Assembly (NCBI RefSeq): GCF_002262875.1
Contig: NZ_NKYE01000011.1
Coordinates: forward strand, 1 to 64,000
DNA from: Amycolatopsis antarctica
GTDB taxonomy: Bacteria > Actinomycetota > Actinomycetes > Mycobacteriales > Pseudonocardiaceae
Reading direction: 5' to 3'
Length of the DNA: 64,000 nt
Part shown: piece by piece, positions 37,004 through 59,518 of the stretch
Layout of the letters: every line of letters starts with the position of its first letter
Position numbering within the stretch: the stretch's first letter is position 1
Notes under the pieces: generated by a model
Told to the model about the DNA's origin: nothing
Databases searched by the model: none
Seen by the model: only the letters and a program-made list of their open reading frames with translations
Position numbers and translations under genes: made by a program

Positions 37004-37876
37004 TCAGGTCCAGGTGACGACCGTCCGGTCGTCGGTGAAGCCGATCAGGCAGGACACGTTGGTGCGATTGCCCTCGGTCGCGTCGACGGCGTGCACGTGG
37101 GCGCCGTTGAATACGTAGACATCACCCTGGCGGATGTCCAGGCGGATCTCGTCGAAACCGGCGAGAACGTCCGCCGGGTAACCGAATCCGGTGTCGCGCA
37201 GCCCCAGTTCGTCCCGGCTCGGGTCGTCAGGGCGGATGTTCCAGATCACCAGGCGCCCACCCTGCTCGTGCTCCACGCACATGTTCACCGCACACACCTC
37301 GTGCTCCAGCGTCCGCTGGATCTCGAACCCGGCCTGCCGCGGATCCTTGCACTGGGCGGCGTCGTCGTGCGGGGCGAGGGAGAACGCGCCCGCACCGGTC
37401 CAGGCCCGGATCAGCGCGGGGCCGGCCGAGGTGCCGTGCATCCGCGCGACCCGCAGGGTGGCACCGTGCCGGGCGAGCGCCGTGGACACACCGTCCCGGA
37501 AGGACGCCCAGGGCGAGTCGGGCACATCCAGCACGTTCTCGACGTCAACCCGCACCGCCTCGCTCTCCGCGAGGTAGGTCTCGACCGACTTGTTCCAGTG
37601 GTACGAGCCGACGTAGTGCGAGGGCTCGCCGGGACGGTGCCTCCGGGCGGGACTGGCCCAGAACCGATCGGTGATCGCCCGCTGCGCTTTCGCCGGGATC
37701 ACCCCGCGGAAGATCACGCCGAGTCTCCTGCCGCGAAGGACGTCCAGCACGAGTTCGGGATCGAACTCGGTCCGTTCCTCGAAGCGGAAGTACCCGGCGT
37801 CACCGCGGTACCCACTCAGTGGCTGCGTCTCCTGGCGCGTGCTGGCTTTCTGGTTCATGGTGCGAATCGTTCCCAT
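37004..37876 (-). CDS. Putative Fe(II)/2-oxoglutarate-type dioxygenase in NRPS operon
   Basis: A 290-residue protein. Residues near 160-170 give 'SLAPHDDAAQ', an HxD pair, and 'VFNGAHVHAVDATEGNRTN' near 255-270 gives the distal His and the Arg expected to hold 2-oxoglutarate. The fold thus looks like the 2OG-Fe(II) oxygenase superfamily, but it does not match a named family by eye. It follows the carbamoyltransferase by 18 bases in the NRPS operon, so it probably hydroxylates (or otherwise oxidises) an amino-acid precursor, a carrier-bound residue or the finished peptide. ATG 37876 is used; the first codon of the frame is TTG 37879. Confidence 0.75.
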   Translation of the reverse strand: MGTIRTMNQKASTRQETQPLSGYRGDAGYFRFEERTEFDPELVLDVLRGRRLGVIFRGVIPAKAQRAITDRFWASPARRHRPGEPSHYVGSYHWNKSVETYLAESEAVRVDVENVLDVPDSPWASFRDGVSTALARHGATLRVARMHGTSAGPALIRAWTGAGAFSLAPHDDAAQCKDPRQAGFEIQRTLEHEVCAVNMCVEHEQGGRLVIWNIRPDDPSRDELGLRDTGFGYPADVLAGFDEIRLDIRQGDVYVFNGAHVHAVDATEGNRTNVSCLIGFTDDRTVVTWT

Positions 37877-37894
37877 CAATCCGTCGGGCTGCGG

Positions 37895-39460
37895 TCACTG
37901 CCGCCGGGTCACGAAGGTGTCCTCGACGACGTAGCCGTCGAGACCGTGCTGCTCGCCGTACTCGATCAGGTCACTGGTCCGGTTGATGAAGCCGCGACCG
38001 GAGAAATTGAGGGAGGTGTTGCACAGCACGCTGAATCCGGTGCGGTCGCCGAAGGCGGTGAGCAGGGCGGCGAGGGCGGGGTTCTGTTCGCGGGTCACCG
38101 TCTGCACGCGGGCGGTACCGTCCACATGGGTCACCGCCGCCAGCTCGCCGGAGCGGACCTGGCTGAAGTACAGCATGTACGGATCCGGGATCGTCCCCTC
38201 GAACCAGCGGGCGGCCTCGGACTCCAGGCTGATCGGTGCGATGGGCCGGTATCCCTCTCGCTGCTTGATCGCGTTCAGCCGCCTGGTGGTCTCCTCGGTG
38301 AACGGTGCCGCCAGGATCGACCGGTTGCCCAGCGCGCGCGGACCCATCTCCCAGCGGCCGCGGGCCCAGCCGATGATGTTGCCCTCGGCCAGGAACGCGG
38401 CCACCTCCGCCGGATCCAGTGGCCGGCTGTGGAAGAACGCCGCGTCGAACACCGTGTCCTGGACGAAGCCGTCCCCCGCGTAGACATCCCAGGACACCTC
38501 GGCCGAACCGGTGTAGAACAGTTGCGCGTCGATCGCGGTTCCCAGCGCGGACCCGCTGTCGTTCGGGCACGGCGGCACGAACACCTCGGGGAACAGGCCG
38601 CACTCACGCCAGCGGCGGTTCCACTCGCAGTTGAGTCCGCAGCCGCCCGAGATGAGCAGTGGCAGGCCTTCGGTCAGCGTCTCCGCCGCGTAGTCGTGGA
38701 ACCGTTCGAAGATGGCGTCGGACATCCGCGCGGCCAGGTTCTTGTACTCCTGCGATTCCACCCCGATGTCGTGGAACGGCGACCAGCGCAGTTCGTCCTT
38801 GCCGAGGTTGAGAATGATGCCGTCCTGCTCCAGGACGAACTCGATCAGCTCGCGTTCCTGCCGGTTCGCCGGGCCCGGCTCGGCGAAACCGGTCAGCGCC
38901 ATCTGCTTGCCCGCGTCCTGCAGCCGGAGAAGTCCCTTGTTCGCGGGGAATCCCGGGTCCGCGAGCGCGAACAGGTAGGCGTACTTGTTGCCGGGGTCGG
39001 CCATCACCTGGCGCAGGTGGGTCACCTCACCGCGCTCGTCCACGCGGTAGAAGGAACCGATGTTGCCCTCCCAGACCAAGCAGTACCGCGCTTGCCCGGG
39101 CGGCAGCGGGGCCAGTCCGTGCGCGGTCATGATGTGCGAGCGCTCGTGACTGGAGGAGAACATCCGGACCGGACGGCCGAAGAAGGTTCCCGCGCGGTCG
39201 GTGACCGAGCCGGGCCCGACACCGAAGTAGCCGGTACGCGAGGGCGGTTCCACCGAGAAGGCGCCCTTCACCCAGCCGCCGACGGCGACCACGTCCGGCA
39301 GCCGGTCCAGTCGTTCGGCGGCGTTGGACAGCACCTCGGCGGTGAGCGTGTCGTAACGCGGGAAGGAGTCCTTCTCGGCCTCCATGGAGAACAGCAGCCT
39401 GCCGTCCTCGATCGCCACGACCGCGCCGTCGTGCCCCTCCTTGAATCCCAGGATCAGCAC
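37895..39460 (-). CDS. Carbamoyltransferase in NRPS operon (TobZ/NovN/NodU family)
   Basis: A 521-residue carbamoyltransferase that would use carbamoyl phosphate and ATP to place a carbamoyl group on a hydroxyl through a carbamoyl-adenylate. The N-terminal Kae1-like domain starts 'LILGFKEGHDGAVVAIEDG' and holds the metal-binding His pair in 'SSSHERSHIMTAHGLA'; 'LLISGGCGLNCEWNRR' and 'PPCPNDSGSALGTA' follow. The C-terminal domain carries 'ARGRWEMGPRALGNRSILA' and 'VLCNTSLNFSGRG'. GTG 39460 is the start: AAAGGGA lies seven bases upstream, and the ATGs nearby are in another frame that stops at once. It lies 13 bases downstream of the second NRPS. Acceptor unknown; Ser or Thr of the peptide or a hydroxylated residue are candidates. 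Confidence 0.9.
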   Translation of the reverse strand: MLILGFKEGHDGAVVAIEDGRLLFSMEAEKDSFPRYDTLTAEVLSNAAERLDRLPDVVAVGGWVKGAFSVEPPSRTGYFGVGPGSVTDRAGTFFGRPVRMFSSSHERSHIMTAHGLAPLPPGQARYCLVWEGNIGSFYRVDERGEVTHLRQVMADPGNKYAYLFALADPGFPANKGLLRLQDAGKQMALTGFAEPGPANRQERELIEFVLEQDGIILNLGKDELRWSPFHDIGVESQEYKNLAARMSDAIFERFHDYAAETLTEGLPLLISGGCGLNCEWNRRWRECGLFPEVFVPPCPNDSGSALGTAIDAQLFYTGSAEVSWDVYAGDGFVQDTVFDAAFFHSRPLDPAEVAAFLAEGNIIGWARGRWEMGPRALGNRSILAAPFTEETTRRLNAIKQREGYRPIAPISLESEAARWFEGTIPDPYMLYFSQVRSGELAAVTHVDGTARVQTVTREQNPALAALLTAFGDRTGFSVLCNTSLNFSGRGFINRTSDLIEYGEQHGLDGYVVEDTFVTRRQ

Positions 39461-39473
39461 GAAATCATCCCTT

Positions 39474-42400
39474 TCATGGTGTGCCGCCGTAGCGGGCCCG
39501 TGGATCGCCGAGTGTCGTGACCCCGCCCGTGTCCACCCGCCCGGCGCGCACGTCGGCCTCCGCGCGGGTGATGATCGCCTCGAGCGCGGTTCGCCAGTGC
39601 CCGGCGAGTACGCGCACTGCCTCACCGTCGAGTACTCCGTCCAGCCAGCCCCAGATCGCGGTCAGCTCGGAGTGCCCGGGATGGTCGGCGATGTACACAG
39701 TGGACTCCAGTACGTGCGAGACGCGCATCCCCGGATCCGTTCCGCCGCCCATGACCGTGGACATCTCCCCGGTGGGCGCCCAGTCCCCGGTGTCGTCGCC
39801 GACGGTGAACCGGCCGAGGTAGTTAAACTTCACCCGCGGCGGTTCGGCCGCCGCCAGCGTGCCGGCCGTGCCGGGGTTGAGATAGCGCAGCATCCCGTAC
39901 CCGAGCCCGCTGTCAGGCAGTGCGCGCAACTGGTCGCGGACCCGGCCGACGGCCGCGCCGAGGCCGGGTCCCGCGGCACGGACCTCGTCCCAGTCGAGCG
40001 CGCCCGGGTCGAACCAGGCCGGGAACACGTTCACCAACCAGCCCACCGTCGCCGAGCAGTCCACGCCCTCGGCGATCGCGTCGCGACCGTGGCCCTGCAG
40101 ATCCACCAGCAACCCGCTGCCACCCTCTCCGCGCCAGTGCGCGAAGGCCAGCGCCAGCGCCGTGTAGAGCGCGTCGTGGGCACCCGCCTTGAACGCGGTG
40201 GGCACGCTGCTCAGCAGTGACCGGACCCGATCGTCGCCGAGGCGCAGCACCAGTCCGTCACCGGCCGCCACGGTGTCCCGGTCCGGGTCCAGCGGGCGGC
40301 TGCCGAACGGTGGGTTCGGCCGCCGCACGATCTCCGTCCACAGTGGAAGTTCCTGTGTCCGGAGTGGACTGACGGCCTGTGCGGCGAGTTCCCGCGCCCA
40401 GCCGGCGAACGAGGTGGCCACGGGTGGCAGGGCAGGCGTCACACCGGTGTGGACCGCATCCCAGGCGGTGCCGAGTTCGCGCAGCAGCACCCGCCAGGAC
40501 ACCGCGTCCATCACCACATGGTGCGCCATCAGCAGCAGCCTGCCCGGACGGTCCGCGCCCGCGTCGAACCACACCGCCCGCACCATCACCCCGGCCCAGG
40601 GGTCGAGGCCGCGCTGCGCCGCGGCGAACTCCGCCTCCAGCAGTTCACCTGGCACCGGAACGTCGCCGGGAGCGACCGTGGTGTCCGCCGCGCGCACGTC
40701 CACCCGGCGCAGCAGGTCGGCGGCCCGGACGGAGCCCCGCGGGCCGACCTCCAGTGTCCAGTCCGCGCCGGTGTCCCCACCGCGGCGCAGCGCGGACCGC
40801 AGCACGCCGTGCCGGTCGAGCATCAGATCGAGGGCCGTGAGGAGTTCGTCCACGCGCATGCCCGCCGGGACACGGACGAGCATCGCGAGGTTGTACTCGT
40901 CGATGGGGCCGCCCAGCTCGGCCAGGCGCGCGATGATCGGCGTGGCCGGTATCGCCCCCTCCGCCGCGCCGGAATCCGCCGCGGGTCTCGACTCCCCCGG
41001 AATCTCCGCGGGCACCGGGCGCGCGACGGCGGCCAGCCCCCGGACGCTCTGCTGGGCGAGGACGTCGCGCGGCGTGATCGACAGACCCGCCGCCCACGCC
41101 CTGCTGACGAGCTGGATGGACACGATGCTGTCGCCGCCGAGATCGAAGAAGCTGTCCTCGACGCCGACCGAGGGCAGGCCGAGCACGTCGGCGACGGCAC
41201 GGGTGAGGGTGACCTCCGCCGGGGTCCGGGCGGCCCCGCCGGTGGTGACCGATCCGAAGTCGGGTGCGGGCAGCGCGTCACGGTCCAGCTTTCCGTTGAC
41301 CGTCAACGGAAGCCGCTCCAGCACCACCACCGCGGCCGGGACCATGTGCGCGGGCAGCGCCCGGCCCGCGTGCTCGCGCAGTGCGGCGGGCGACGGCGGC
41401 GCGGACGCCGTGGCGGGCACCACGTAACCGATCAGCCGCCGGACGCCCGCGCGGTCCTCCCGGACCACCACCTCGGCCCGGTCCACGGCGGGGTGCGCGG
41501 CGAGCGCGGCACCGACCTCGCCGGGCTCGATCCGGAAACCGCGGATCTTGACCTGGTCGTCGGCCCGGCCGCCGTATTCCAGGGTGCCGTCGCTGCGCCA
41601 CCGGGCCACGTCGCCACTGCGGTACATGCGGGTTCCGGCCGCGCCGAAGGGATCCGGGAGGAAGCGTCCCGCGGTCAGTGCCGGGCGGGCGAGGTATCCG
41701 CGGGCCAGTCCGGCACCCGCCACGTAGACCTCGCCGCGCACCCCGGGCGGGACCGGCCGCATCCGCTCGTCGAGCACGTACACCCGCAGGTCCGCGATCG
41801 CCTCGCCGATGGGACTGGCGGTCTCCTCGGCGCACATCCCGGCATCGAGCGTCTGCCGGGTGACGTGCACCGTGGTCTCGGTGATGCCGTACATGTTGAC
41901 CAGGACGGGCCCGTTCCCACCGTGGCGGGCGTACCACTCGCGCAATCGGGGCGGGTGCAGGCGCTCGCCGCCGAACACGACGTACCGCAGCGCGTCCTCG
42001 CCGGCTGGTGCCTCCGCCTCGGCACGGGCGAACTGGTCGAACGCCGAGGGGGTCTGGCTCAGTACGGTCACCCGCCGCTCGCGCACCAGCGCCGCGAACT
42101 CTGCCGGTGAGCGGGTGATCTCGCGGGGCACCACGACGAGCGTGCCGCCGTGCAGCAGCGCACCCCACATCTCCCACACCGAGAAGTCGAAGGCGTACGA
42201 GTGGAACATCGTCCACACGTCCGTGTCGCCGAACCCGAACAGCGGCGCGGTCGACTGGAACAGGCGGGTGACGTTCCGGTGCGTCACCACGACGCCCTTC
42301 GGTGTCCCGGTCGATCCGGAGGTGTAGATGACGTAGGCGGCGTTGCCCGGCACGGGCCCGCGAGGGCGCACGTTCGCGGGTACCGCCGCGGCGCGGCCGT

Positions 42401-45400
42401 CGAGTGCGGCGGCGACCGCGGGGTCGTCGAGGCGGACGTGCTCGGACGCGGCCGGTCCGTCGAGACCGTCCGGCAGCGGGCCCGCCGAGATCAGCACCCT
42501 CGGGCGGGCGTCCTGGGTGAGCAGGGCGATACGTTCCGCCGGGTAGTCCGGATCGATCGGCAGGTACGCCCCGCCCGCCTTCAGCACCGCGAGGACGGCG
42601 ACCACCAGGTCGAGGGAGCGGGGCAGCAGCAGGGCCACCGGCGATTCGGTGCGCACGCCCCGTTCCGTGAGCAGCCCGGCCAGTCGGTCGGCGCGCGCGT
42701 CGAGGTCACCGTAGGTCAGCGACGCGCCCTCGCAGACGACGGCGACCGCGTCCGGTGCGGCGGCGGCGCGTGCCTCGAACAGCCCGGGCAGCGTGGCGGT
42801 CCGCGTGCCCGCGGTGCCGGGTTCGGGGTGCGGGCCGCCGAGCAGCCGGCGCCGTTCCCGGTCGTCCATCAGGTCCGCGCGGCCGATCGGCTGCTCGGGA
42901 TCGGCCGTCCAGGTCTCGAGCAGCCGCCGGAACCTGTCCATCAACGACAGCACCGAGTCACCGTCGAAGAGGTCGGTGCTGTAGTTGACCACCGCGGCCA
43001 GTCCGCCGGCGGCTCCCGGGGTTTCGGCGAACTCGATCGACAGGTCCAGTTTCGCCGTCGCGCGGCCGACCGGTTCCGGTTCGATCCGCAGGCCCGGCAG
43101 ATCAAACTCCGGCCGTGTCGTGTTCTGCAGGGTCAGCATCACCTGGAACAGCGGGTGGTGTGCCTGCGAGCGCCGCGGGTTGAGCGTGTCGACGAGCTGC
43201 TCGAACGGGACGTCCTGGTTGTCGTACGCGGCGAGGACGGTCTCCCGCACGCGGCTCAGCAGTTCCCGGAAGGTCGGGTCGCCGGAGGTGTCGGTGCGCA
43301 GCACCAGGGTGTTCAGGAAGCAGCCGACCAGTTCGGTGAGGGCGTCGTCGGTACGGCCGGCGATCGGGCTGCCGATCGGGATGTCCGTGCCGGCTCCCAT
43401 CCGGTGCAGCAGCGCGGCGAGGGCGGCCTGCAGCACCATGAAGGTCGTGGTCCCGCTCCGGCGGCCCAGTTCGGCGACCGCCCTGGCAAGGGCCGGTGGC
43501 CAGTCGACGGTGACGACGTCACCCCGGTGACTGCTCACGGCGGGCCGTGACCGGTCCGCGGGCAGCGCGATCTCGTCCGGCAGCCCGGCCAGTGCCCCGC
43601 GCCAGTACGCGAGTTGCCCGGCCAGCACGCTGCCCGGATCGTCCTCGGCACCGAGCCGCTCACGTAGCCACAGCGTGTAGTCGGCGTACTGGACGGGCAG
43701 CGGAGACCAGTCCGGGGGCGCGTCCTGACACCGTGCCGCGTAGGCCTGCGCCAGATCGCGGAAGAAGGGCGCGGTCGACCAGCCGTCACCCGCGATGTGG
43801 TGCCAGGCGCCGAACAGCACGTGGGTCTGCGGGCCGAGGACGAACAGGCTCGTCCGCAGCGGGGTCTCACCGCTCAGATCGAAGACGTGCGCGGCGGCCG
43901 CGTCCAGCCCGCCGCGCAACTCGGCCTCGGTGGTGCCGACGACGTGCAACTCCGGATCGGCCGTCTCCAGCACCACCTGGGCGGGAACACCGCCGGTGTG
44001 CGGGAACACCGTGCGCAGACTCTCGTGCCTGCGCACCACGTCACCGAGCGCGGCACGCAGCGCGGGCAGATCGAGCGCGCCGGTCAGCCGCAGACTCCAG
44101 GACATGTTGTAGGCGGGGCCCACACCGTCGAGCAGTTGCAGGTACCAGAGCCGCCGCTGCGCGGGTGAGAGCGGCAGGACCGGGGGCCGGGTGCGGGGAC
44201 GCAGCGGTGTTCTCGCATCGCCGGCGCCCGCGCACAGGCGGGCGAGTTCGGCGACAGTGGGCGCCTCGAACATGTCGCGCACCCGCAGTTCCACGCCGAG
44301 CACCGCCCGCGCCCTGCTGACCAGCCGGGTGGCCAGCAGGGAGTGGCCGCCGAGGTCGAAGAACCCGTCGTCGATGCCGATCTCCGCGAGGCCCAGCACC
44401 TCGGCGAACAGTCCGGCCAGGATCTCCTCGCGGGGCGTGCGCGGCACCCGTCCGCTTTTCCCGCCGGGGAGATCCGGCGCGGGCAGGGCTCTGCGGTCCA
44501 GCTTTCCGTTGGGGTTGAGCGGAAACTCGTCGAGCACGACGATCGCCTCGGGCACCATGTGGCTGGGCAGCCGGTCGCGCAGATGCGCCAGCACGGTCTC
44601 GCCGAGCGCGCCGGCAGTCAGGGAGACGGCCGGGTGGGAGGCGTGGGCGGACAGTGGCCGGTCCTCGGACTCGGTGGTGACCAGCAGGTCGACCGGGTGG
44701 TGGGTCCCGGCCGGTTCGGCGGGCAGGAGGACGGCGTCGAACAGTTCACCGGAGCCGGTGGACGACCAGGTCGTGCCGACCCAGAAGCCGAGCCGGTCCC
44801 CAGCGGTGTGCACGGTCTCCGGGTCCACGGCGGTGCCGTACTCGCGCAGGGCAGCGGTCACCGCGCTGCGCGATCGGCCGTCGCGCAGGGCGCGGGCGGC
44901 GGCGGTCTCCCCCGCCAGGCGCCGGTTGGGGATGCCGGTGATCCGCAGTCCGTCCGCGCCGGACTCACGCAGCAGCCCGGGCAGGTCCGCGAGGGTGCCG
45001 ATCCGTCCGCCCCATTCGACCCGGGGCAGATCCCGGACCGACCGCATGGCCCCGGCGGCCTTCTTGTGCAGCACGACGTCGTAGCGGTGCCGGGTCAGCT
45101 CGTTGTGGTGGGCGCCCCGTTGCAATCGGATGTCGACGCCGCCGATGTCCTCGATCCGCTCGCCCAGTGCGGTGAAGAACTCCGGTGCGAGCAGGAGTTC
45201 CTTGTCCAGCAGCACATCCTGTTCGACGGCGCGGCGGAGTACCTCGGTCTCTGCCGACTCCTCCGCCCTCGCGAGACGCACCGCCGTGTGGAACGACCGC
45301 CGGGTGCGCAGGTTGCGCAGGTCGCCCGCGAACATCGCGCCGCCGGGGACGAGCAGCGCCATGGCCCGCTCGATGACGGTGGCCAGGTAGCCGTGGTCCG

Positions 45401-48400
45401 GGAAGTACTGGGCCACCGAGTTCAGCACGACCGTGTCGAAGAACCCGGTCGGCAGCCCGTCGAGCTGGTCGGCGGCGAGGGTCCGCAGTTCCACCGTGGC
45501 CCGCGGTCCCGGCAGCCGGTCCACCTGTTCGCGGAGTCCCTCGATGATCGGCGCGGAGAAGTCGATCCCCCAGTACTGCTCGCACTCCGGGACGAGTTTC
45601 GCCAGCAGCAGTCCTCGTCCGACGCCGATCTCCAGGACCCGGCGGGGACGCAGCTCCCGGATCCGGTCGATCCGCGCGGACCGCCACTCGTGCATCTCGG
45701 CGAGCGGGATGGGCGCACGCTCGTAGCTGGAGTCCCAGCCGGTGAAGTCCTCGCCCAGTTCGTGCCGGAACGTCCCGGAGACCGCGTCGTAGATGGTGCG
45801 CCATTCCTCGACCTGTGCGTCGGCCTGGTCCCCGCCCGCGCGGCGGTCACCGGAGGGCACGACGTAACCGATCAGCCGCCGGTCCCCCGGCGCCGTCTCC
45901 CGGACACCGACCGCCGCCTGCGCCACCGCCGGGTGCGCGCCGAGCACGGCCTCGACCTCGCCCGGCTCGACCCGGAAACCCCGGACCTTCACCTGGTCGT
46001 CCTCGCGGCTGGCGAAGCGCAGCCGTCCCCGTTCGTCCCAGCGAGCGAGGTCGCCGGTCCGGTACAGCCGCCCGCCGTCGAACGGGTTCGCCACCCAGGT
46101 ACGCGCGGTCTGCTCCGGCCGGCGCAGGTAGCCCCGGCCGAGTGCCTCGCCCGCGAGGTAGACCTCCCCGGTGACGCCGATGGCGACCGGGCGCAGATCC
46201 GGCCCCAGCACATAGGCCCGGCAATTCTGCGTCGGCACGCCGATCGGGATCGGCCCGGCCGGCTCGCCGTCCGGATCGTAGGTGTGACAGCAGGACAGCC
46301 CGCTCACCTCGGTCGGGCCGTAGCCGTTGACGATCCGCAGTTGCGGCTGGCGTTCGGCGAGCGCCGCGCACAACGCCGGGGAGAGCACGTCGCCGCCCGG
46401 GACGACCTGCCGCATTCCCTTGAACGCGTCCGGATCGGCGTCGACGATCTCGTGGAACAGGCCGGTGGGAAGGTACGCGGTGGTGACCCCGTGTTCCCGG
46501 CAGAACGCGCCCAGTTCGGCCACCGAGGGGATGCCCGGCGGGAACGCCGCCACCCGGGCGCCGTTGAGCAGTCCGGTCCACAGTTCCGTCGTGCAGATGT
46601 CGAACGACGGTGAGGCGAGGTTCAGCACGACGTCCTCGGTGGCGACGTCGACGAAGTTCGGTGACCACGCCAGCCGGACGATCGCCTGGTGCTCGATCAC
46701 CGCCCCCTTCGGCACTCCACTGGAACCGGAGGTGTAGAGCACGCAGGCCGCGTGCCGGGGTCCGAGCGGGAGGCCCGGCCTGTCCGTGGTGCCGCCGGTG
46801 TCCCCCGGTGAATCCAGCGGCACCGTCCGCGCGGCCCCGGCCGGCAGCCGGTCCACCAGGTGCGGCTGGACGAGCACCAACGCGGCCGCGGTGTCGGCGA
46901 GCATGAGTTCCAGCCGCGCCACCGGGTACGAGGGGTCGAGCGGCACGTAGGCGCCACCTGCCTTGAGCACAGCCAGCGCCGCGACGGCGAACTGCAGGCC
47001 ACGCTCGGCGAACAGCCCGACCGGCTCGTCCGGCCGGACACCGAGGCCGATCAGCCGGTGGGCCAGCCGGTTGGCACGTTCGTCGAGTTCCCGGTACGTC
47101 AGCGCGTATCCGTCCGCGGCGAGTGCCGTGGCGTCGCCGCGCGCGTCGGCGGTCGCCTCGAACAGGTCGACGATGGTGTCCGCAGGCAGGGTTCGGCCGG
47201 TGTCGTTCCAGACGGTCAGCACGGTGTGCCGGTCGGATTCGGGCAACCGGTCGACCGCGGAGACCGGACTGTGCGGATCCGCGACGACGGTCTCGAAGAA
47301 CCGTCGCAGCCGGGCGGCCACGGCCTCCACCGCCTGCCGGTCGAACAGGTCCGGCCGGTGGTCGATCCGCAGCGACAGCTCCTCGCCCGGCGTCACCAGC
47401 AGCGACAGCGGATAGTGCGCGCCGTCCCGGCCGGTGATGCCTCGTACCGTCACCCCGGCGGTCGGACTCGCCCACAGGGAGGTCTCGGTCGGATAGTTCT
47501 CCAGCACCGCGGCGGTGTCGAACAGTTCCCGCATCCCGGTGGCCTGCTGGATGTCGCTCAGGCCGGAGTACTGGTGCACGAGAAGCTCGGACAGTTCCCG
47601 CTGTGTCCTCGCCAGCATCCGGCTCAGCGGCTCGGCGGGGTCGAACCGGATCCGCGCGGGCACCGTGTTGGCCAGCAGGCCCACGATGGTGCCGACGCCG
47701 GCGACCTCCGGCGGACGACCGGAGACGGTCATGCCCACGGTCACGTCGCGGCGTCCGGTGAGAGACCCGATGAGTACGCCCCAGGCTCCCTGGACCAGGG
47801 TGTTCAGCCGGAGGTCCTGGCTCGCGCAGAGGTCGTCGAGGGCGGCGGTGAGTTCACGCGGGAGGGACAGTTCGATCGACGCGGTAGGCCCCCCTGCCCG
47901 TCCCAGTTCCGGTGGTGCGACGAGGGTGGGCCCGTCCAGTCCGGCCAGTGCCCGCCGCCAGCCTTCGCGGGCCGCTTCCGGGTCCTGCCTGGTGAGCCAG
48001 GCGAGGTAGTCGCGATAGCGGGCAGCGGGCGGCAGCAGCGACTCGTCGCAGCCGTTGTCGTAGAGGGCGAACAGTTCGCGGAAGAGCATGTGCCCGGACC
48101 AGCCGTCGATCAGGATGTGGTGACTGGTCAGCACCAGTCTGCAGCGGCCGGGGCCGAGGCGGGCCAGGGTGAACCGGATCAGCGGCGGGCGGGTCATGTC
48201 GAACCCTTGCGCCGCGTCGGCTGCCATCAGCTCCGTCAGCGCCGCGGCCTGCTCGGACCCGGCGAGTGCCGTCAGATCGATCTCGGTCCACGGCAGCCGT
48301 GCCGACCGCGGGATCACCGCGACCGGCTCACCCGACTTCCGCTCCAGGAACGCGGCCCGCAGGTTCGGATGGCGGCGCGGCAGCGCCTCGGCCGCGCGCC

Positions 48401-48551
48401 GCAGCCTGGCCGCGTCCAGTTCGCCGTCGAGGTCCACGCCGAGCTGGATGTAGTAGACGTCGGTGCCGTCCTGGTCGTAGCGGGCGTGGAAGAGCAGGCC
48501 CTCCTGCAACGGGGACAGGGGCAGGACGTCGTCGATGCCGGGTCTGGTCAC
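39474..48551 (-). CDS. Non-ribosomal peptide synthetase B (C-A-MT-T-C-A-T-E)
   Basis: A 3025-residue two-module synthetase. Module 4: condensation domain (1-440, HHILIDG at about 146, opening '[13 protein letters not shown]', the type seen after epimerases), adenylation (455-900) split by an N-methyltransferase (about 905-1230, SAM motif '[12 protein letters not shown]') before '[13 protein letters not shown]', and carrier T4 (GGHSL). Module 5: condensation (HHIAGDG), adenylation (1910-2410), carrier T5 (GGDSI) and a C-terminal epimerase ([15 protein letters not shown]). Pocket residues read DITYVGGGL(K) for A4, matching no known code, and DFWSVGMVH(K) for A5, which fits Thr. In E5 the usual EGHGRE reads QGHGRD. 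There is no thioesterase. It starts at 48551, overlapping NRPS A's stop by four bases. Confidence 0.96.
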
Positions 48552-51500
48552 TGTCGCTCCTCATAGGCGCCGAGCAGGCCGGCGAACTCGTCGATCTCGA
48601 ACTGGCTCACCGAGACCAGTGCCTCGTCCACCGTGGTGTCCTCCTCGAGCGGTGCCACGGGCGCGTCCGTGGCCGCCTCGGCCAGTGCGGCCACGGTCCG
48701 GCGCGCGAAGACGTCCCGCACGGTGAGCACCAGGCCCTCATCTCGTGCCCTGCCGACCAGTTCGATCAGCAGGATGCTGTCGCCGCCGATCGCGAAGAAG
48801 TCGTCGTCCGGGCCGGCCGAGTCCACCCCGGTGACGTCGGCGAACAACCGGCAGAGCACCCGTTCCCGTTCCGTGCGTGGTTCCCGGCCGGACCGTGGCG
48901 CGAACTCCGGGGCGGGCAGGGCGGCACGGTCGAGCTTGCCGTTGGCGCTCAACGGGAGGGCGTCCAGCACGACGAATGCCGAGGGCACCAGGTAACCGGG
49001 CAGGTGCCTCGCCAGGTCTGCCCGCAGGACAGCCGGATCGGGTGCCGTCCCGCCGGGCACCGGCACCAGGTAGCCGACCAGCATCGGCGCCCCGGCCGGG
49101 CCGGTGGCGACGTTCGCGGCGCTCCTGCCGACGGCGGGGTGGCCGACGAGGGCGTTCTCCACCTCGCCGAGTTCGATCCGGTTGCCGCGGATCTTGACCT
49201 GGTCGTCGATGCGGCCCAGGTACTCCAGTTCGCCCAGGGCGTTCCGCCGCGCCAGGTCGCCGGTCCGGTACATCCGGCCGCCGGTCCGGAAGGGGTCGGC
49301 CACGAAGCTGCGCGCGGTGAGCCCCGACCGCCGGTGGTAGCCGGTCGCGAGCTGGCCGCCCGCCAGGTAGAGCTCGCCGGTGACCCCGTCCGGCACCGGG
49401 CGCAGCGCGTGGTCGAGCACGTGGGTCCGGGTGTTGTGCACGGGACGTCCGATGGGGACGCCCTCGGCACCGGGATCGCAGGGCCACCAGGTGACGTCGA
49501 TCGCCGCCTCGGTGGGCCCGTAGAGGTTGTGCAGGGGCACGTCGGAGAGCTCGTACCAGCGTCGGACGGTCGCGGCGGACAGCGCCTCCCCGCTGCACAG
49601 GACCCGGCGCAGCCCGGTGCGGCCCGCCGCCGGGGACGCTGCGAGGAAGACGTCCAACATGGACGGTACGAAGTGGACGGTGGTGACCTGCTCGTCCCGG
49701 ATCAGCGTCGCCAGGTACTCGGGGTCGCGGTGCCCGCCGGGACGGGCGATCACCATGGCCGCTCCGGTGAGCATGGGCCAGAACAGTTCCCAGATCGACA
49801 CGTCGAACGCGGCCGAGGTCTTGTGCAGGACCCGGTCCCGCGCGGTCAGCTCGAAGGCCTTCCGCATCCAGTGCAGGTGCCCGGTGATCGCGGCGTGCGA
49901 GACGGTGACGCCCTTGGGCCGCCCGGTCGATCCCGAGGTGTAGATCAGGTAGGCGGGCGCTCCCGGTGGTACGGCGGCCGGAGGGACCGAGCGGGCGGCG
50001 TGGTCCGCACCGGCGTGCACCGGAACCACCGTTTCGGGGAGCGAGCCGTCGTGCCCGCCGTCGGTCACCACGACGGCGGCACCACTGTCGGCGAGCAGGA
50101 AATCCCTGCGCGCGGCCGGATGGTCCGGGTCCATCGGCACGTACACCCCGCCCGCGTGCACTACCGCCAGCGCCGCCACCACCGACTCGGCCGATCTCGG
50201 CAGCAGCACCGCCACCGGTGTCCCCGCCCGCACGCCGAGCTCGGTCAGCCGTCCGGCCAGGCCGCGTACCCGGGCGTCCAGTTCCGCGTATGACCACGAG
50301 ATTCCCCCGGCCACCACCGCCGTCGCCCCGGGCATCCGGGCCGCGGTGGCGGCGAACAACTCCGGCAGCGTGCCGGCCGGCACGGCGACCTCGGCTCCCT
50401 CGTCCTCGCGCGCGACGCGGGCACGCTCGGTGGCGTCGAGGACCGGCACGTCCAGGAGTCTGCGGCCGGGCGTCTCGGTGACGCGGGCGGCCAGCAGCAC
50501 GAGACGGCGGGCGAACGCGGCGACGGTGCTCTCGTCGAACAGGTCCGTGTCGTACTCGATCAGGCCGGCGAGGCCGCCGTCCGGTTCCTGCCGGAAGTGG
50601 ATGTTCAGGTCGAACTGGGTGGCCTCGCGGGGCAGCGGGAACTCGCGTGAGTCCAGGCCGTCCGGCGCGAACCGCTGTGCCGGCGCGTTCTGCAGGACCA
50701 GCATCACCTCGACCAGCGGTGCCCTGCTGGTGTCGCGTTCCGGGGCGAGGGTCTCCACGAGTTTGCCGAACGGCACCCCCTGGTGCGCGTACGCGGCCAG
50801 CACGGTCTCCCGTACCTGGGCGAGCAGTTCGCCGAAGCCGTGCGACTCGTCGATCCGGGAACGCAGCACGAGCGTGTCGGTGAAGAACCCGACCAGACCC
50901 TCCAGTTCGGTCCGTTCCCGGCCGGAGGTGGCGGTGCCGATGACGATGTCCCGGCGTCCGGTGTGCCGGGCCAGCAGCAACTGGGTGAGCGCGGTCAGGG
51001 TGATGAACAGCGTCGCGCCGTGCTCGCGGCCCAGGGCCGACAGGGTGGAGGTCAGCTCCGCCGGGATGTCGAGGGTGTGCTGCGCCCCGGACGAGCCGCG
51101 TACGGCGGGACGCGGGCGGTCGAGGGGAAGTTCGAGCGGTGTGATCCCGTCGAGGTGCTCGCGCCAGTACGCGAGATCCGCCGCTGTCTCGTCGGCCGGT
51201 ACGCCCGGCTCCCACAGATCCCGTTGCCACAGGGTGTAGTCGGTGTAGCGCAACGCCGGTTCCGGAAGCAGCGCGGGCCGCCCCGCGACGGCCGCTTCGT
51301 ACAGCGCTGTCAGCTCCCCGGCGATGATCCCGAGCGACCAGCCGTCCGCGACGATGTGGTGCACCGACAGCACGAGCACCTGTTCGGCGCCGGACAGGCG
51401 CACCAGCAGGACCCGCAGCAGCGGCCCGGTCCGCAGGTCGAACGCGGTCGCCGATTCCTCGCGCAGCAGCCGGTCCAGCTCGGCGGACTGCGTCTTACTG

Positions 51501-54500
51501 TCTGATGTGGACAGATCGATCTCGTGGACCGGGACCTCGGCAGGCGGGTGCACCACCTGCACTCCGCGTCCGGCCAACCGGGCGAAGGTGGTGCGCAGAG
51601 ATTCGTGCCTGGCGGCCACGCCGGTCACCGCCGCCCGCAGGGCGCCGGTGTCGAGCGGACCGGACAGCCGCCAGCCGACGCCGAGGTTGTACTCCACGCC
51701 GCCCGGCCGGAACTCGTCCAGGAACCACAGCCGCTGCTGCGCGAGGGACAGCGGCGGGGCGCCGTCGTGCACACGGGCGACGAGGTCGCCGCGTGCGGGC
51801 AGTGCCGCGGTCGAGCCGGGTAGCGCGGCAGCGAGCGCCGCCACGGTCGGGTGCTCGAACAGGGCGCGCGGGGAGATCCGCGCTCCCGTCTCCGAACGGA
51901 TCCGGGACACCACCCGCATGCTGTGGATGGAATCCCCGCCCAGCGCGAAAAAATCGTCCCGCACACCGATCTCCGGGATGCCCAGCACCTCCGACCAGAT
52001 GGCGCACAGCAGCCGCTCACCCTCGTCACGCGGCGCCAGGAACACCGTGCCCGTTTCGGATCCGGGAACGGGCAGTGCGGACCGATCGAGTTTTCCGTTG
52101 GCGTTCAAGGGAAGCGCGTCCAGCCGGACGAAGTCCGCGGGCAGCATGTAGACGGGCAGGTACTCGGCGAGGTGCGCTCGCAGCAGCTCGGGCTCCGGCA
52201 TCTCGCCGCGCGGCACCACGTAGCCGACCAGCCGCGGTGAGCCGGACGCCGCCGGCGTGGCGACCACCGCGGACGCCGCCACCGACCGATGCCGGGCGAG
52301 GGTGCGCTCGATCTCGCCGGGTTCGACGCGGTTACCGCGGATCTGCACCTGGTCGTCGGTCCGTCCGAGGAACTCCAGTTCGCCCTCGGCGTCGCGGCGG
52401 ACCAGGTCGCCGGTGCGGTACATCCGTTCGCCCGGCCGGAACGGGTCGGCGACGAACCGGGTCGCCGTCAGCGACGGCCGGGCGTGGTACCCGTTCGCGA
52501 GCTGCCCGCCCGCGACGTACAGCTCACCGGCGACCCCGGCGGGCACCGGGCAGAGCGCGTGGTCCAGGACCATGGTCCTGGTGTCCCACACCGGCCTTCC
52601 GATCGGCACCGTGCCGGCACCCGGCCTGCACGGCCACACGGTGACGGTGATGGCGGTCTCGGTGGGCCCGTAACCGTTGTACAGCGGCACATCGAGCGTG
52701 TCGTACCAGCGTTCGACGGCCTCGGGGGTGAGCGCCTCACCCCCGCAGATCACCCGCCGCAGGGCGGTGCAGCCTGACGCGAGGGGCGTGTCGAGGAAGG
52801 CGTCGAGCATCGAGGGCACGAAGTGCGCCGTCGTCACCGCGCGGTCGCGGATCAGCGCGGCAAGGTACTCCGGGTCGCGGTGACCGCCCGCGCGGGCGAG
52901 CACCACCGACGCGCCCGTCGTCAGTGGCCAGAACAGTTCCCACACCGACACGTCGAAACCGGCGGGTGTCTTGTGCAGTACGCGATCGTCGGCGGCGAGC
53001 GGGAATTCGCCCCGCCACCAGCGCAGGTGCCTGCAGACGGCGGCGTGCGGGACCACCACCCCCTTCGGCCTGCCGGTGGAACCCGAGGTGTAGATCAGGT
53101 AGGCGCCGGAGCCCGGCGGGATCGTCGCCGGAAGCGGAGCGGGGACGACGCCCGTCCCGTCCGGCCCGGCGTCCACCGCGACCACTTCCGGCGGCAGCAG
53201 GGCCCGCGACTCCGCGCCCACGACCGCCACGGCCGCGCCGGAGTCGGCGAGGACGAACCCGATCCGGTCGGCCGGATACTCCGGATCGACCGGCACGTAC
53301 ATGCCGCCCGCTCGCACCGTCGCCAGCACGGCGACGACCAGGTCCACCGACCGGGGCAGCATGATCGCGACCGGTGTTCCCACGCCCACACCGAGACCGG
53401 CCAGCCTCCCGGCCAGTTCCCCGGCCCGGGCGTCCAGTTCGGCGTAGGACAGCGACACCTCGCCGGAGAGCACGGCGAGCGCGTCCGGGGTGCGGGCCGC
53501 CTGGGCGGCGAACAGTCCGGGCAGCGACCCGGGCGGCTCCGGCAGCACCGTCCCGGCCATCTCTTCCGGCCACCGGTGCCGCTCGTCGCGGGTGAGCACG
53601 CCCGTCCGCCCGGTTGGCTGCTCGTGCCCGACACGGATGGCCTGGAGCAGGCCGGCCAATCTGCCGAGCAGGCCCCGGGTGACCGGGTCGCCCGCCGCCC
53701 CCCGGCAGACGGACCGCAGGCGCAGTCGCGGTCCCGGAACGGCGACGATGGTCAGCGGGTAGTGCGTCTCCTCGGCGACCCGCAGGCCGGTGAGCCGGAG
53801 GCCCGGGACATCCCCGGGCAGGAATCCCGGATCGTGCGGGTAGTTCTCGAACACCAGCAGCGTGTCGAAGAGTTCGCCGTGGCCGGCGGCCCGCTGTATC
53901 GCGGGCAGCGCGAGATGGTGATGCGGGCCGAGTTCGGACTGTTCCCGGTGCAGCCGGGCCAGCAACCGGGACCACGGCTCGCCGGTGCTCGCCCGCGCCC
54001 GGACCGGCACCGTGTTGATGCACAGTCCCACCAGGTCCTCCACCGTGGGCACCTCCGGCGGCCGGACCGCCACGGTGGTGCCGAACACGACGTCCTCGCG
54101 TCCGGTGAGCCTGCCAAGCAGCACCGCCACGGCGGCCTGGAGCACCGTATTCAGCGTGACCCCGCATCGGCGGGCGATCGCGGAGAGCCCGGCGGTGTCG
54201 CGTTCGGACAGTTCGAGTTCCTCGTCCCCGGCAACGATGTCACCGCGGGGCCCGCAGGGAACCACCGCCGTGGGGCCCGCTAGACCGGCCAGCGCCGCCC
54301 TCCAGGCACGCTCAGCCGCGCCGGTATCGGTGCCCGCCAGCCATTCCAGGTACTCGCGGTACCCGCTCGCGGGCACCGTCGTGAGCTGCCCGCTTCCCGC
54401 GTACGCCGCGAACAGTTCGCGCACCAGCAGTGGCATGGACCAGCCGTCCAGCAGCAGGTGGTGGTGGGTCAGCACGACCAGATGCCGTCTCGGTCGCACG

Positions 54501-57500
54501 GTGACCGCCATCAGACGGAGCAGCGGCGGCACCGCGACGTCGAAACCGGCCGCCCGGTCGTCCGCGAGCAACCGTTCCAGCCGATCCTCACGCACCTCCG
54601 GGTCCGATTCGGACAGATCGACCTCCCGCCAGGGCATCGTCACCGACGAGGGCAGCACCTGCACGGCGTCACCGGAGTCACGGTGCTGGAACGCCGCACG
54701 CAGATTGGGATGCGCGGCGAGCAACCTGTCGCCCGCGGCGCGCAGCGCGGCCGTGTCGAGTTCCCCCTCGACGTCCATCCGGAACTGGACCACGTAGGTG
54801 TCCTGCCGGTCCCGGTCGTAGGCCGCGTGGAACAGCAGTCCCTCCTGCAGCGGTGCGAGTGGCAACAGATCCGTCACGCCACCGGGGTGTGCGCGCTCGT
54901 GCCGGTCGATCTCGGCCTGGGTCAGGTCCACCAGGGGGAAGTCGGAGGGGGTGTGCCCGCCCGTGCCCGCGCGCCCGGTGTGGTCGGCGAGCGCCGTCAG
55001 TACCGCGAACCACTCCTCGGCGAGCGGGCGGACGTCCACTTCGGACAGCAGGGTCCCCGGCCAGGACCAGGTAGCCGTCAGCTCGCGGCCCTCCCGGTGG
55101 CGTACCGCCAGCGCGTCGATGGCCAGCGCATGCGCCACCGGCCTGCCGGGATCCCGCCCGGCGTCGAAGACCTGGTCCGCGGCCACGGTGCCGAGGTAGT
55201 TGAAGCCGATCTGCGGGCGGCCCAGACCGGCGAGTTCGGGACCCGTCAGCGGGTTCAGGTACCGGAGCATCCCGAAGCCGATTCCCTTGCGTGGCACGGC
55301 ACGAAGCTGCTCCTTGACCCGCTTCACCGCCTGGTCCAGCGTCGCCGCGCCGAGGTCCCCGGCCGCACCGACCGGCCCCGGGTCAAGCCGAACCGGGTGC
55401 AGGCTGGTGAACCACCCGACCGTCCGGGACAGCTCCGCCCCGGGCACGGTGTCCTGTTCCCGGCCGTGACCCTCCACATCGACGAGCACACCGGTGCCAT
55501 CGCCCCGCCGGCGTGCCACCGCCGTGGCGAGGGCGGCGAGCAGGAGATCGTCGACGCCACAGTGGAACGCCGCGGGCACCGCCGTCAGCAGCCGTTCGGA
55601 GACGCGCGGGGGCAGTGTCAGCGTCACCTGCCGCACCGAGCCGGTGAGGTCCACGGCCGGATCGACGGGACGGGGGCCGATCAGCGGCTCCCGTGCGTCC
55701 AGCAGTTCGCGCCAGTACGGCAGTTCGGCGAGCGTCCCGGGGAGACCGGCCTGCTCGGTCAGTCCGCGCGCCCAGGCACCGAACGAGGTTCCCCGGCCCG
55801 GCACCGCCGCGGTCCGTCCGGCGGCGGCACGTTCGGCGGCGGCGAGGAATTCCGGCACCAGTACCCGCCAGGAGACCCCGTCCACCGCGAAGTGGTGGAT
55901 CGCCAGCAGAGCGGTGGACGGCCCGGTGTCTCCCCGGTCGAACCAGACGAGCCGGACCAGGTCGCCGGTCGCCGGGTCGAGCTCCCGCTGCACGGCGGCA
56001 CTCTCCCGCGCGATGGTGGCGGACCACACCTCGGCGTCGTCTCCGGAGGGGTCGTCCCCGGACAAATCCACCCGGCGCAGGCACCCCCGTTCCGCTACTG
56101 AGCCGGGCGGAGCGAACACCAGCTCGTCGCCGCTGAGCCGCATCCGCAGCGCGTCATGCCAGTCGAGCAGCGCACGCAGCCCGGCGAGCAGCGCGGTCTC
56201 GCCGAGTCCCACGGGAAGATCCAGCCGCATCGACTGGTGGAATCCGCGCAACGGGCCGCCCGTGCCGGCGAACCACGCCATCACCGGCGTCAGCGGGCTA
56301 CGGCCCGTGCCCTCGGCGGGGCCGGGCTGCTCAGGGGACAGGCCGGTACGGGCGGCCCGGGCGAGCGCGGCCGGGTTGCCGTGCCGGACCAGGTCGCGGG
56401 GTTCCAGCACGAGGCCGGCGGCACGGGCGCGGGCGACGAGCTGCAGCGACAGGATGCTGTCGCCGCCCAGATCGAAGAAGCCGTCGTCGATGCCGACCAC
56501 CGGAGTGTCCAGCACCTCCGCGAACAGGGCGCACAACCGCTCCTCGACCGGGTTCCGCGGCTGCCGGGACGCTGCCCGCTCCACCGGCCCGGGAGCCGGC
56601 AGCGCGGCCCGGTCCAGCTTCCCACCCGCGGTGACCGGCAACTCGGGCACCACCACGATGGACGCCGGGACGAGGTGTTCCGGCAGGATCGCGGCCAGGT
56701 GGTCGCGCAGTTCGCCGGAATCCGGTTCAGCGCCCCCGGCCGCCGGGACGGCGTAACCGGTCAGCCGGCGCTCCCCCGGGCGGTCGGCGCGCACGATCAC
56801 CACGGCACGGCCCACCCCGGGATGCGCGATCAGCGCCGCCTCGATCTCACCGGGCTCGATCCGCACGCCGCGGATCTTCACCTGGTCGTCCGCCCGGCCG
56901 GCGAACTCCAGGTCACCGTCCCGGTTCCACCGGACCAGATCGCCCGTGCGGTACATCCGCTCCGCGGCCGCGCCGCGGACGAACGGGTCGGCCACGAACA
57001 GTCCCGCGGTCAGCGCCGGGCGCCCGTGGTAGCCCCTCGCCAGGCCCGCGCCGGCGAGGTACAACTCGCCGAGCACACCCGGCGGAACCGGTCGCAGCCC
57101 GCGATCCAGGACGTAGACCCTGCTGTTGTCCCGGGGGCGCCCGATCGGTGCCGCACCGGCCTCGACGGAGGCGGCGGTCAGTTCCCGGTGGGTACCGATC
57201 ACCGTGTACTCGGTCGGCCCGTATGCGTTGACGACGGCGGTGCCCGGGCAGTGCCGCAGTACCCGCGCCACGGCCTCCGGCGAGGCCGCCTCGCCGCCCG
57301 TCCACAGCTCGCGCAGCCCGGCGAAGCAGTCGGGGGACTCGGCGGCGAAGTAGGTGAACAGCGCGGCCGTCACCAGCATCGCGGTGACGCCGTGCTCGGC
57401 GACCAGCGTCCGGACCCGCTCGGGTGTCAGCTCGCCCGCCGTGACGACGATCTGCCCACCGGTCAGCAGCGGAACCCAGATCTCGTAGGTCGAGGCGTCG

Positions 57501-59401
57501 AACGTGGGCGAGGAGTGGAACGAGACGACCCCGTGGGCCTCGCGCCAGCGCCGGTCCCGGGCGAGGCTCACCAGGCCCTGGTGGGTGACCGCCACGCCCT
57601 TCGGCGCGCCGGTCGATCCGGAGGTGTGCATGACGTACGCCGGTTGCCGCGGATCCGTCCCGGTGACCACGGCCGGTTCGCCGGGTCCGGAGGTCCCGCC
57701 GTCATCGGTGGTGAGCACGGGGACCCCGGCCGCACCCGCGGCGTCCCGATCGCGCGGCGCGGCGAGCACGAGGACGGCACCCACGTCGCGGACCAGCCGC
57801 CGGGTCCGCTCGGCGGGCTGGCCGGGGCTCAGCGGAACGTATGCCCCACCGGCCTTGAGCACGGCGAGCATGGCGACGACGAGGTCCGCCGAGCGGTCAA
57901 GGAGCAGGGCGACCCGCGACTCGCGCCGCACACCGGCCGCGATCAGGCCGCGCGCCAGCCGATCCGCCGTGGCGTCCAGTTCCGCGTAGCTGAGCGACTG
58001 GTGCCCGTCGCGCAACGCCGGGGCGCCGGGTGTGCGCCTGGCGTGCTCGGTGAACAGTTCGTGCACGCACTTCCCCGCTGGGTAGGCGGAGCCGGTGTCG
58101 TTGCGGGCGCGCAGGAGGTCGTCCCGTTCGGCGGCGGTGAGGATGCCGAGTTCTCCGGCCGCGCGGCCCGGATAGCCCTCGGTGAGCGTGCTGGTGACCT
58201 CGTCGAGCAGGCGCAGAAACCGGTCGTGGTGCTCGGCCACCTCCGCCGCGTCGTAACGGGCGGCGTTCCCGTCGGCGGCGGACTGCACGCCCCGGGCACC
58301 GACCCGGACGAAGAAGCCGAACGCGAGGTCGTCGGTGGGCCCGACCGCCAGGTTGTGCGCCGTCGCGGGGTGCTCGCCGAAACGAACGTCGAGGTCGAAC
58401 GGCACGAGATTGACGGTCAGGTCGACCAGGCGGTCACCTGGTCCGGTGCGGCCGAGATCCTTGCGCAGGTCCTCCATGCGGTAGCGCTGGTGCGGCAGTA
58501 CCGCGCGGAGTTCGCTCTCCACCTCGGTGAGCAGTCCGGTCAGCGGGATCCCGGTACCCACGGTGATCCGCAACGGCACGACGTTCGCGGTGAAGCCGGG
58601 CACGTTCCGCGTGGACGGGTCGAGCCGTGCGCCGACCGCGAGCCCCAGAACCACCTCGGACGTATCGGTCATCCGGTGCACGAACACCGCGGCCGCGGTG
58701 AGCAGGATCGCGGGCCAGGACACCCCGGCCGTCCGGGCCGCCGCCCGCCAGGCGTCCGGGCGGCCGGCGCCGAGCCACGCGTCGTGCCGGACCGAGGGCA
58801 GCAGTTCCGTGGACGAACGGCGCGAGAGTCCGGGCCGTGCGGGCAGGCCGGCCAGGCGGTTCGCCCAGAACTCGCGATCCCGTGCGAAGTCGGCGCCTGA
58901 TCGGTACTCGGCGTCGGCCCGCAGCAGCGCGCGCAACGAGCCGAACGGCGCGGGGCCGGATGCGTCCCGGCCCTCCGCGAGTGCCGTGTAGGTCTCGGCG
59001 GCCCGCTGGAAGAGCTGTGTCGCGCCGAGTCCGTCGACCAGGATGTGGTGGTAGCGGTGGTACCAGAAGTGGTGGTCCTCGGCGAGGGTGAACAGGATCG
59101 TGCCGAACAGGGGTGCGCCCGGCCCACGGGGGGCGATCAGGTCCTCGCGCATCAGGTCGTGGGCGGATCGCACCGGGTCCGCGTGCCCGGTGAGGTCGAC
59201 CCGGCGCGGCGAGGTCTCCGGCACCTGTCCAGGGCGTTGTGCCGGGCCGTCGGTCAGGGCGACGGTCAGTGTGTCGGCCTCGCCGACGGTCCGCGTCCAG
59301 GCGGTCTCGAGCAGCACCGGGTCCAGCGGGCCGCGGATGTCGTAGAACTCACCGATGTTGTGCCGGGGGTTCTCCGGGTCGAGCCGCCAGCCCAGCCACA
59401 T
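48548..59401 (-). CDS. Non-ribosomal peptide synthetase A (C-A-T-E-C-A-T-C-A-T)
   Basis: A synthetase of at least 3617 residues with three modules. C1 (1-440, YHHILVDG, EntF-like) leads to A1 (445-945), T1 (GGDSI, about 978) and E1 ([29 protein letters not shown]). C2 (HHLLLDG, opening '[11 protein letters not shown]') leads to A2 and T2; C3 (HHIVADG) to A3 and T3 (GGDSI). Pocket residues: A1 DAYLWGAVI(K), no match; A2 DVWHIGGIT(K), Ser-like but altered; A3 DVWHLSLID(K), Ser. After T3 comes a 45-residue tail '[19 protein letters not shown]'. Coordinates begin at the first canonical start, ATG 59401, but core motif C1 ('[12 protein letters not shown]') is encoded in frame upstream; see the entry at 59518. 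Confidence 0.96.
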
Positions 59402-59518
59402 GCCGTGCTGGGGGGCCGACAGCGGCAGGTCGGGTCCGGGGTCCGCCGCGTACTCGGGTACACCGGGGGTGGCCGGAGAAGGCGCCGCTCCGGCAGGCCC
59501 GAAACCTGGCGTTGTGAT
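59402..59518 (-). other. In-frame N-terminal extension of NRPS A, probable AUC start
   Basis: Thirty-nine codons upstream of ATG 59401 are in frame and complete condensation motif C1 ('[18 protein letters not shown]'). No ATG, GTG or TTG exists in this frame. An ATC codon at 59518 starts '[10 protein letters not shown]', and GGGGGAG (59524-59530) lies five bases upstream, ideal Shine-Dalgarno spacing. Non-AUG initiation at AUC, or a sequence change from ATG, is the simplest reading. Confidence 0.6.

Follow-up and report, generated by a model that had tools for sequence, protein, structure and literature searches.

A compact, apparently undescribed nonribosomal peptide synthetase operon of Amycolatopsis antarctica and the carbamoyltransferase-hydroxylase pair that may supply one of its residues

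The first 64,000 nucleotides of contig NZ_NKYE01000011.1 of Amycolatopsis antarctica (assembly GCF_002262875.1; this whole stretch is called the window below) hold an operon of ~22.5 kb, in which two nonribosomal peptide synthetases (NRPSs) are followed by a predicted O-carbamoyltransferase (CT) and a predicted Fe(II)/2-oxoglutarate (2OG) hydroxylase (DOX). The question raised by this locus is which residue of the peptide would carry the carbamate. The best explanation, to which we give about an even chance, is that DOX and CT make a carbamoylated branched-chain building block for residue 4 of an acylated pentapeptide. The parts are ordinary and all of known kinds; their arrangement is compact, conserved and apparently undescribed, and the interesting element is the CT-DOX pair, which appears to be portable. 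The features are as follows, with condensation (C), adenylation (A), thiolation (T), epimerization (E) and N-methyltransferase (MT) domains given by letter; the domain coordinates are approximate.

59518 (or 59401) to 48548, minus strand: N1 (NRPS 1), starter C-A1-T-E / C-A2-T / C-A3(Ser)-T, with a docking-like C-terminal tail
39474..48551, minus strand: N2 (NRPS 2), C-A4-MT-T / C-A5(Thr)-T-E, without thioesterase
37895..39460, minus strand: CT, Carbam_trans_N + Carbam_trans_C, GdmN/NovN/TobZ fold
37004..37876, minus strand: DOX, WelO5/HilA branch, triad H171-D173-H263
59622..59650, minus strand: sigma-70-like promoter match, TTGACC-17-TAGTAT, ~100 bases upstream of ATC 59518
58112..59518, minus strand: starter C domain, Ala at the RzmA R148 / HolA A149 position
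56612..58063, minus strand: A1, code DAYLWGAVI, aliphatic-type; T1 and E1 come next
52067..53554, minus strand: A2, code DVWHIGGIT, Ser-like with an enlarged pocket
48917..50368, minus strand: A3, code DVWHLSLID, predicted Ser
44457..47189, minus strand: A4 with embedded MT, code DITYVGGGL, proposed to accept the building block made by CT-DOX
41277..42794, minus strand: A5, code DFWSVGMVH, predicted Thr
39612..40949, minus strand: terminal E domain, core HHVVMDA

In the proposed route, DOX would hydroxylate a free branched-chain amino acid to give a gamma-hydroxy residue, CT would move a carbamoyl group from carbamoyl phosphate, via carbamoyl-AMP, onto the hydroxyl made by DOX, and A4 would activate the carbamoylated amino acid, which the embedded MT would N-methylate to give residue 4. 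The lactonisation of a gamma-hydroxy aminoacyl thioester is an argument from chemistry: the carbamate may stop it by capping the gamma-hydroxyl, which, left free, could form the lactone and detach the aminoacyl thioester from its carrier. The starter C domain would accept a medium-chain acyl-CoA, and MbtH and the release function would be supplied in trans.

The first-pass annotation, made from the letters of the window, had assigned CT to the TobZ family, and the profile searches agree, as both Pfam halves scored above their cut-offs (Carbam_trans_N 73.9 and Carbam_trans_C 190.6 bits, against 24 and 27) in the same architecture as in TobZ, GdmN and NovN. A structure model with a pLDDT of only 71.4 gave a strong match to the GdmN fold (E 2.5e-26), H105 and H109 of the HxxxH motif, which we take to be a Kae1-like metal motif, were invariant in 11/11 aligned sequences, and carbamoyl-adenylate is named in the PDB titles of the fold matches. 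TobZ and GdmN transfer carbamoyl from carbamoyl phosphate onto a hydroxyl through this same intermediate. Identity to the solved members was 21-24% in the fold search; these act on sugars or macrolactams, whereas the CT clade is NRPS-linked, with an NRPS A domain in the fetched region of 14 of the 16 clade loci inspected (not G086, G213); for the 29 family genomes with CT at >=69% identity, the inspection covered the surroundings of 12.

The oxygenase had been correctly called 2OG-type, and its family, left unclear at that stage, is resolved by fold and motif comparison: DOX belongs to the WelO5/HilA/SadA branch of the Fe/2OG enzymes and carries an HDD...H triad. A phmmer search of DOX against the PDB sequences returned nothing at 0.01, and kin such as 3w20 (presumably SadA) were found only by fold search. 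In addition to the fold, the 2-His-1-Asp triad was present, with H171, D173 and H263 (numbered from TTG 37879) invariant in 22/22 sequences. The only NCBIfam match was HilA (NF041274), the L-isoleucine 4'-dioxygenase of Pantoea ananatis, an HxD hydroxylase like DOX, at 109.1 bits against an equivalog cut-off of 500, so that DOX is not its equivalog. HilA converts free Ile into 4'-hydroxy-Ile and free Val into 4-hydroxy-Val. The halogenase WelO5 (16% identity) has HxG where hydroxylases have HxD, which the 5iqu title 'G166D variant' fits, whereas DOX has H171-D-D173 and thus lacks the halogenase motif. DOX/HilA-like proteins (28-33% identity) were also seen on plasmids of Mesorhizobium, Sinorhizobium and Rhizobium (H3-H7), as hypothetical proteins where the gene is listed.

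The conservation of the operon was followed in a family sample of 390 genomes, the window's own included. DOX was found in 13 of them (E <= 1e-8) and CT in 38 (E <= 1e-100), 29 of the latter at >=69% identity; among these 29, only the window's genome and G142 also had DOX. One of the 389 other genomes, G142, holds the whole operon (CT 83%, DOX 73%, N2 68%, N1 56% identity), and its 80-kb surroundings have nothing else in common with the window except one 36% match (heuristic gene calls). The dN/dS values between the two indicate purifying selection (CT 0.20, DOX 0.23, N2 0.34, N1 0.46). That the operon might be broken in all relatives had been named as a possible refutation, and in the only full relative found the operon is intact and under constraint. 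Since the whole operon is intact there in an unrelated neighbourhood and under such constraint, sequence comparison indicates that the four genes have been inherited and retained as one unit.

Comparison of the A domains connects this unit with residue 4. In the 34-residue pocket signature, the window and G142 agree at 31/34 positions for A4, 31/34 for A5 and 24/34 for A1 (DAYFWGGTF in G142), while Ser moves from module 3 in the window to module 2 in G142 (31/34). The A4-MT module (E <= 1e-230) occurred in 3/390 family genomes and in 1/394 of a class-wide sample, the latter being the window itself. The third of these family genomes, G227, has the N2 architecture C-A-MT-T-C-A-T-E of the window and a similar Thr pocket (29/34 with the window, 30/34 with G142) and lacks CT and DOX, both in 60 kb around the N2 homologue and in the genome-wide DOX and CT lists. 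Its A4 pocket differs, with the aliphatic code DVLLVGASV against DITYVGGGL and 18/34 positions shared with the window's A4. As the cassette-free G227 keeps the Thr pocket and changes A4, this one contrast links residue 4, at the level of pocket residues, to the CT-DOX cassette. The cluster of G227 (L119-L121) is larger than that of the window, with a tryptophan halogenase, a flavin reductase, aconitase and HMGL-like genes, an ornithine cyclodeaminase and more NRPSs.

A scan of genome contigs for DOX gave 7 loci, and a plasmid search gave 7 records, 2 of them close. Distinct loci were counted at ~59% DOX identity or more (n = 12), leaving out G684, which is near-identical to Streptomyces sp. 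NRRL S-87 at the CT-DOX pair. CT lies directly upstream of DOX in six of the twelve: the window, G142, the S. tendae plasmid NZ_CP043960.1, S. novaecaesareae, NRRL S-87 and WAC08241. The other six, where CT does not adjoin DOX, are the S. angustmyceticus plasmid NZ_CP104318.1, S. kronopolitis, NBC_00568, Actinacidiphila yanglinensis, G105 and S. iranensis, the last covered for only 594 bases upstream of DOX. The paired loci fall into four kinds of context: window/G142; NRRL S-87/WAC08241, with polyketide synthase genes and a second CT in NRRL S-87; S. tendae, with capreomycidine-type genes; and S. novaecaesareae, with a PGM1-like ATP-grasp. By gene order, then, CT-DOX is a portable cassette that recurs beside other NRPS cluster kinds (four Streptomyces loci of three kinds). 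An A domain with code DALNLGGVF stands directly before CT-DOX in three Streptomyces pairs, and in S. tendae two genes separate the DALNIGGTF A-domain gene from CT; a single A code common to all CT-DOX contexts was looked for and not found, given DITYVGGGL in the window.

The assembly line itself is largely as first described, with two NRPSs and five modules. By Pfam, N1 (C-A-T-E-C-A-T-C-A-T) has three A, three T and four C/E domains, and N2 (C-A-MT-T-C-A-T-E) has two A, two T and three C/E domains plus the methyltransferase. Intact motifs include HHxxxDG in every C domain, GG[DH]S in the T domains, GxGxG in the MT and the E-domain core. A-domain codes were read by alignment at nine of the ten specificity positions known from the literature, the tenth (Lys) being assumed. 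These readings agree with the earlier placement of Ser at position 3, an N-methylated residue at position 4 and Thr at position 5. The terminal E domain had been omitted from the predicted product, and the last residue is probably D-Thr because the line finishes with this domain.

The acyl group, previously queried, now seems likely, because the first C domain best matches acyl-transferring starter domains. Among solved structures, the closest were those of RzmA-Cs (7c1k/7c1h/7c1p, 9e-72 to 3e-70), followed by CDA C1 (1e-48), ObiF1 (1e-43) and EntF (4e-37), so that its nearest kin are lipoinitiating and the peptide is probably a lipopeptide. A dihydroxybenzoate (DHB)-type siderophore start was considered, given the EntF match and a DHB-AMP ligase (C13) in the genome, and set aside, as the RzmA/CDA-type starter C domains score far higher. 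The site that corresponds to the acyl-length residue, mapped by spacing from HHxxxDG, is Ala in the window, like HolA, and Leu in G142, and the Ala suggests a medium acyl chain for the window peptide. The study of RzmA-Cs, with deposits 7C1H-7C1U, describes acyl length as set by R148 (RzmA, acetyl) or A149 (HolA, octanoyl) and acyl-CoA as the substrate, acyl-ACP (acyl carrier protein) not being fully excluded by its authors (PMC7804268). By that study, the absence of an acyl-loading gene is not anomalous, because starter C domains of this type work on acyl-CoA. The rhizomide and holrhizin NRPSs (RzmA, HolA) share the starter C domain and differ in their other modules, whereas the window's line lacks a thioesterase and has the extra CT and hydroxylase. 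The product would be approximately acyl-D-aa1-aa2-L-Ser-(N-Me-aa4)-D-Thr, an acylated pentapeptide from a self-contained operon. It had been stated that no named pathway has this set of genes; within the open-licence PubMed Central literature, no described carbamoyl-hydroxy-amino-acid NRPS pathway was found to fit, and the pathway is apparently undescribed in that scope.

Several observations weigh against the assignment of the carbamate to residue 4. The contrast between A4 and the cassette depends on one cassette-free genome, and the cassette-linked Streptomyces codes (DALNLGGVF, DALNIGGTF) are unlike that of A4. Moreover, the S. tendae cassette A domain is nearer to the A4 of G227 (21/34) than to the window's A4 (18/34), and the A4 of G227 is equally near to A1 and A4 of the window (18/34 each). 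The distance of DOX from the HilA cut-off counts in the same direction, as do the six of twelve loci with DOX and no adjacent CT, and CT relatives are common without DOX (27/29 family genomes with CT at >=69%). The partner label also shows no clear clustering or single origin on the trees, with 3 changes in the CT tree (44/500 shuffles as low) and 4 in the DOX tree (191/500); here L113 was mistakenly labelled partnerless, although it has CT as well as DOX and is nearly identical to NRRL S-87, and G076/L006 and G194/L008 are duplicate sequences. A1 is aliphatic too and equally near to the S. tendae A domain (18/34), and DOX and CT might serve the D-configured residue 1 instead. We consider this unlikely: the A1 codes are Val/Ile-like, and of the window's A domains A1 scores best in BLAST against the one that precedes CT-DOX in L038, L042 and L044 (for the S. 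tendae A domain, A2 scores top and A1 second), but the A1 pocket is less conserved between the window and G142 than that of A4, and its position 278 is L/F, with no polar residue, unlike the cassette-linked DALN codes. It is more doubtful that CT carbamoylates the side chain of Ser or D-Thr in the peptide while DOX hydroxylates independently elsewhere. Plain codes predict the Ser and Thr hydroxyls, and CT relatives accompany NRPSs without DOX; yet G227 keeps the Thr module without CT, the Ser position differs between the window and G142, and CT and DOX are paired in four cluster kinds.

How the chain leaves N2 has bearing on the same proposal, against which it also counts that no release enzyme was identified for the operon. 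MbtH, transporter, acyl-loading and release genes had been reported absent from the operon, and they are. MbtH can be supplied in trans, judging from six matches in the genome, one of them on the same contig (C5:171902). Pfam found no thioesterase in N2 or elsewhere in the operon, and N2 ends in E, as do SurE-served lines, which likewise lack a thioesterase. As an addition to the model, a trans-acting penicillin-binding-protein (PBP)-type thioesterase of the SurE type might cyclise or hydrolyse the chain, for example the 468-aa PF00144 serine hydrolase at 13694-15100 (plus strand; PDB matches 6ksu, listed as alpha/beta hydrolase and presumably SurE, 8e-36, and the PBP cyclase Ulm16, 3e-28) or the PF00144 genes in the vicinity of NRPSs on C41 and C46. 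Of 12 PF00144 matches in the genome, two lie within ~3-9 kb of NRPS A-domain matches. This, too, we hold to be rather improbable, since no PBP-type thioesterase lies in the operon and the nearest PF00144 gene found, by Pfam scans that did not take in the flanks of the G142 operon, is 22 kb away, which is not the SurE-type arrangement; in the PDB, 13694-15100 comes closest to IS11 (3e-45), and an acylated N-terminus precludes head-to-tail cyclisation through the first amine. The homologue of this gene is also closer in the operon-free G086 (63%; no DOX match) than in G142 (45%, 430 kb from its operon), and the gene was therefore not co-inherited with the operon. Very unlikely, in our view, is an incomplete line in which an NRPS from outside the operon takes over the chain from the terminal E. 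E domains are often followed by a condensation domain, and G227 has more NRPS genes downstream of its N2 homologue, but DOX is the last gene of both complete operons, whose surroundings are unrelated. A docking-like C-terminal tail (15 residues) is present on N1, as on its upstream counterparts in G142 and G227, and N2 lacks such a tail in all three genomes, in keeping with a last position for N2.

Returning to the layout of the operon, the four minus-strand genes first described across 37004..59518 are all present, intact and near-contiguous. N1 and N2 share 4 bases, 13 bases separate N2 from CT, and the CT-DOX gap is 15 bases if DOX starts at TTG 37879 or 18 if at ATG 37876. The first in-frame ATG/GTG/TTG of N1 is at 59401, and the conserved C-domain motif LPLSAPQHG is encoded upstream of it, for which reason the ATC codon at 59518, preceded 5 bases earlier by GGGGGAG, is the more likely start, as a rare start codon or through a sequence error. 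CT had been started at 39625; as its relatives align from GTG 39460, the latter is most likely the start. A single promoter had been proposed for all four genes: one sigma-70-like site was found at 59650-59622 (against 0.2 +/- 0.4 in shuffles), a match that falls short of showing this.

Some further observations concern related loci and the neighbourhood. In WAC08241 (L044), CT, DOX and the neighbouring NRPS genes are broken by several changes of frame in comparison with NRRL S-87, which may be sequencing errors. A DOX relative without CT lies in a cluster of 7-deazaguanine, SbnA/SbnB and Gly-type NRPS genes common to NZ_CP104318.1 (L017) and G105 (L023-L026, with two DOX copies ~16 kb apart), and the NRPS codes are the same in S. 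kronopolitis (L039). A shared cluster surrounds a CT relative in G004 (L103-L104), G001 (L107-L108) and G383 (L109-L110). By Pfam, the G004 copy encodes the large chain of carbamoyl-phosphate synthase, an FAD-NAD(P)-binding protein, a single-module NRPS and a thioesterase, all four with BLAST matches in G001 and G383, together with a major facilitator superfamily transporter. Faulknamycin was dropped as a lead for the S. tendae cluster, judged by text and not by cluster comparison, as 'carbamoyl' is absent from the main text of the cyclofaulknamycin paper (PMC8399532). In the window's own genome (G000), the NRPS regions on C41 (135-169 kb) and C46 (169-197 kb) each lie near an aconitase-family and a PF00144 gene, perhaps for amino-acid chain extension and PBP-type release. 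Within the window, a class A beta-lactamase at 33500-34582 (plus strand; 1w7f, 4e-95) adjoins a LysR-type helix-turn-helix gene on the other strand and is overlapped by an open reading frame at 32684-34759 (minus strand), and a second beta-lactamase-like protein is encoded at 31785-32870.

More broadly, CT-DOX might be a portable maker of a protected amino acid, placed next to several kinds of actinomycete NRPS pathway, in which the gamma-hydroxyl of a branched-chain residue is masked by the carbamate against lactonisation and the pockets of recipient A domains change to fit, a generalisation that we regard as possible though still doubtful. If the proposal is true, this two-gene tag would predict a rare O-carbamoyl hydroxy branched-chain amino acid in NRPS clusters, and the comparison of the window and G142 with G227 would be a natural pocket-swap experiment for A-domain specificity. 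Being small, intact and conserved in a relative, the operon is suited to heterologous expression. All of its pieces are of known kinds, which makes this a useful prediction and not a new kind of system.

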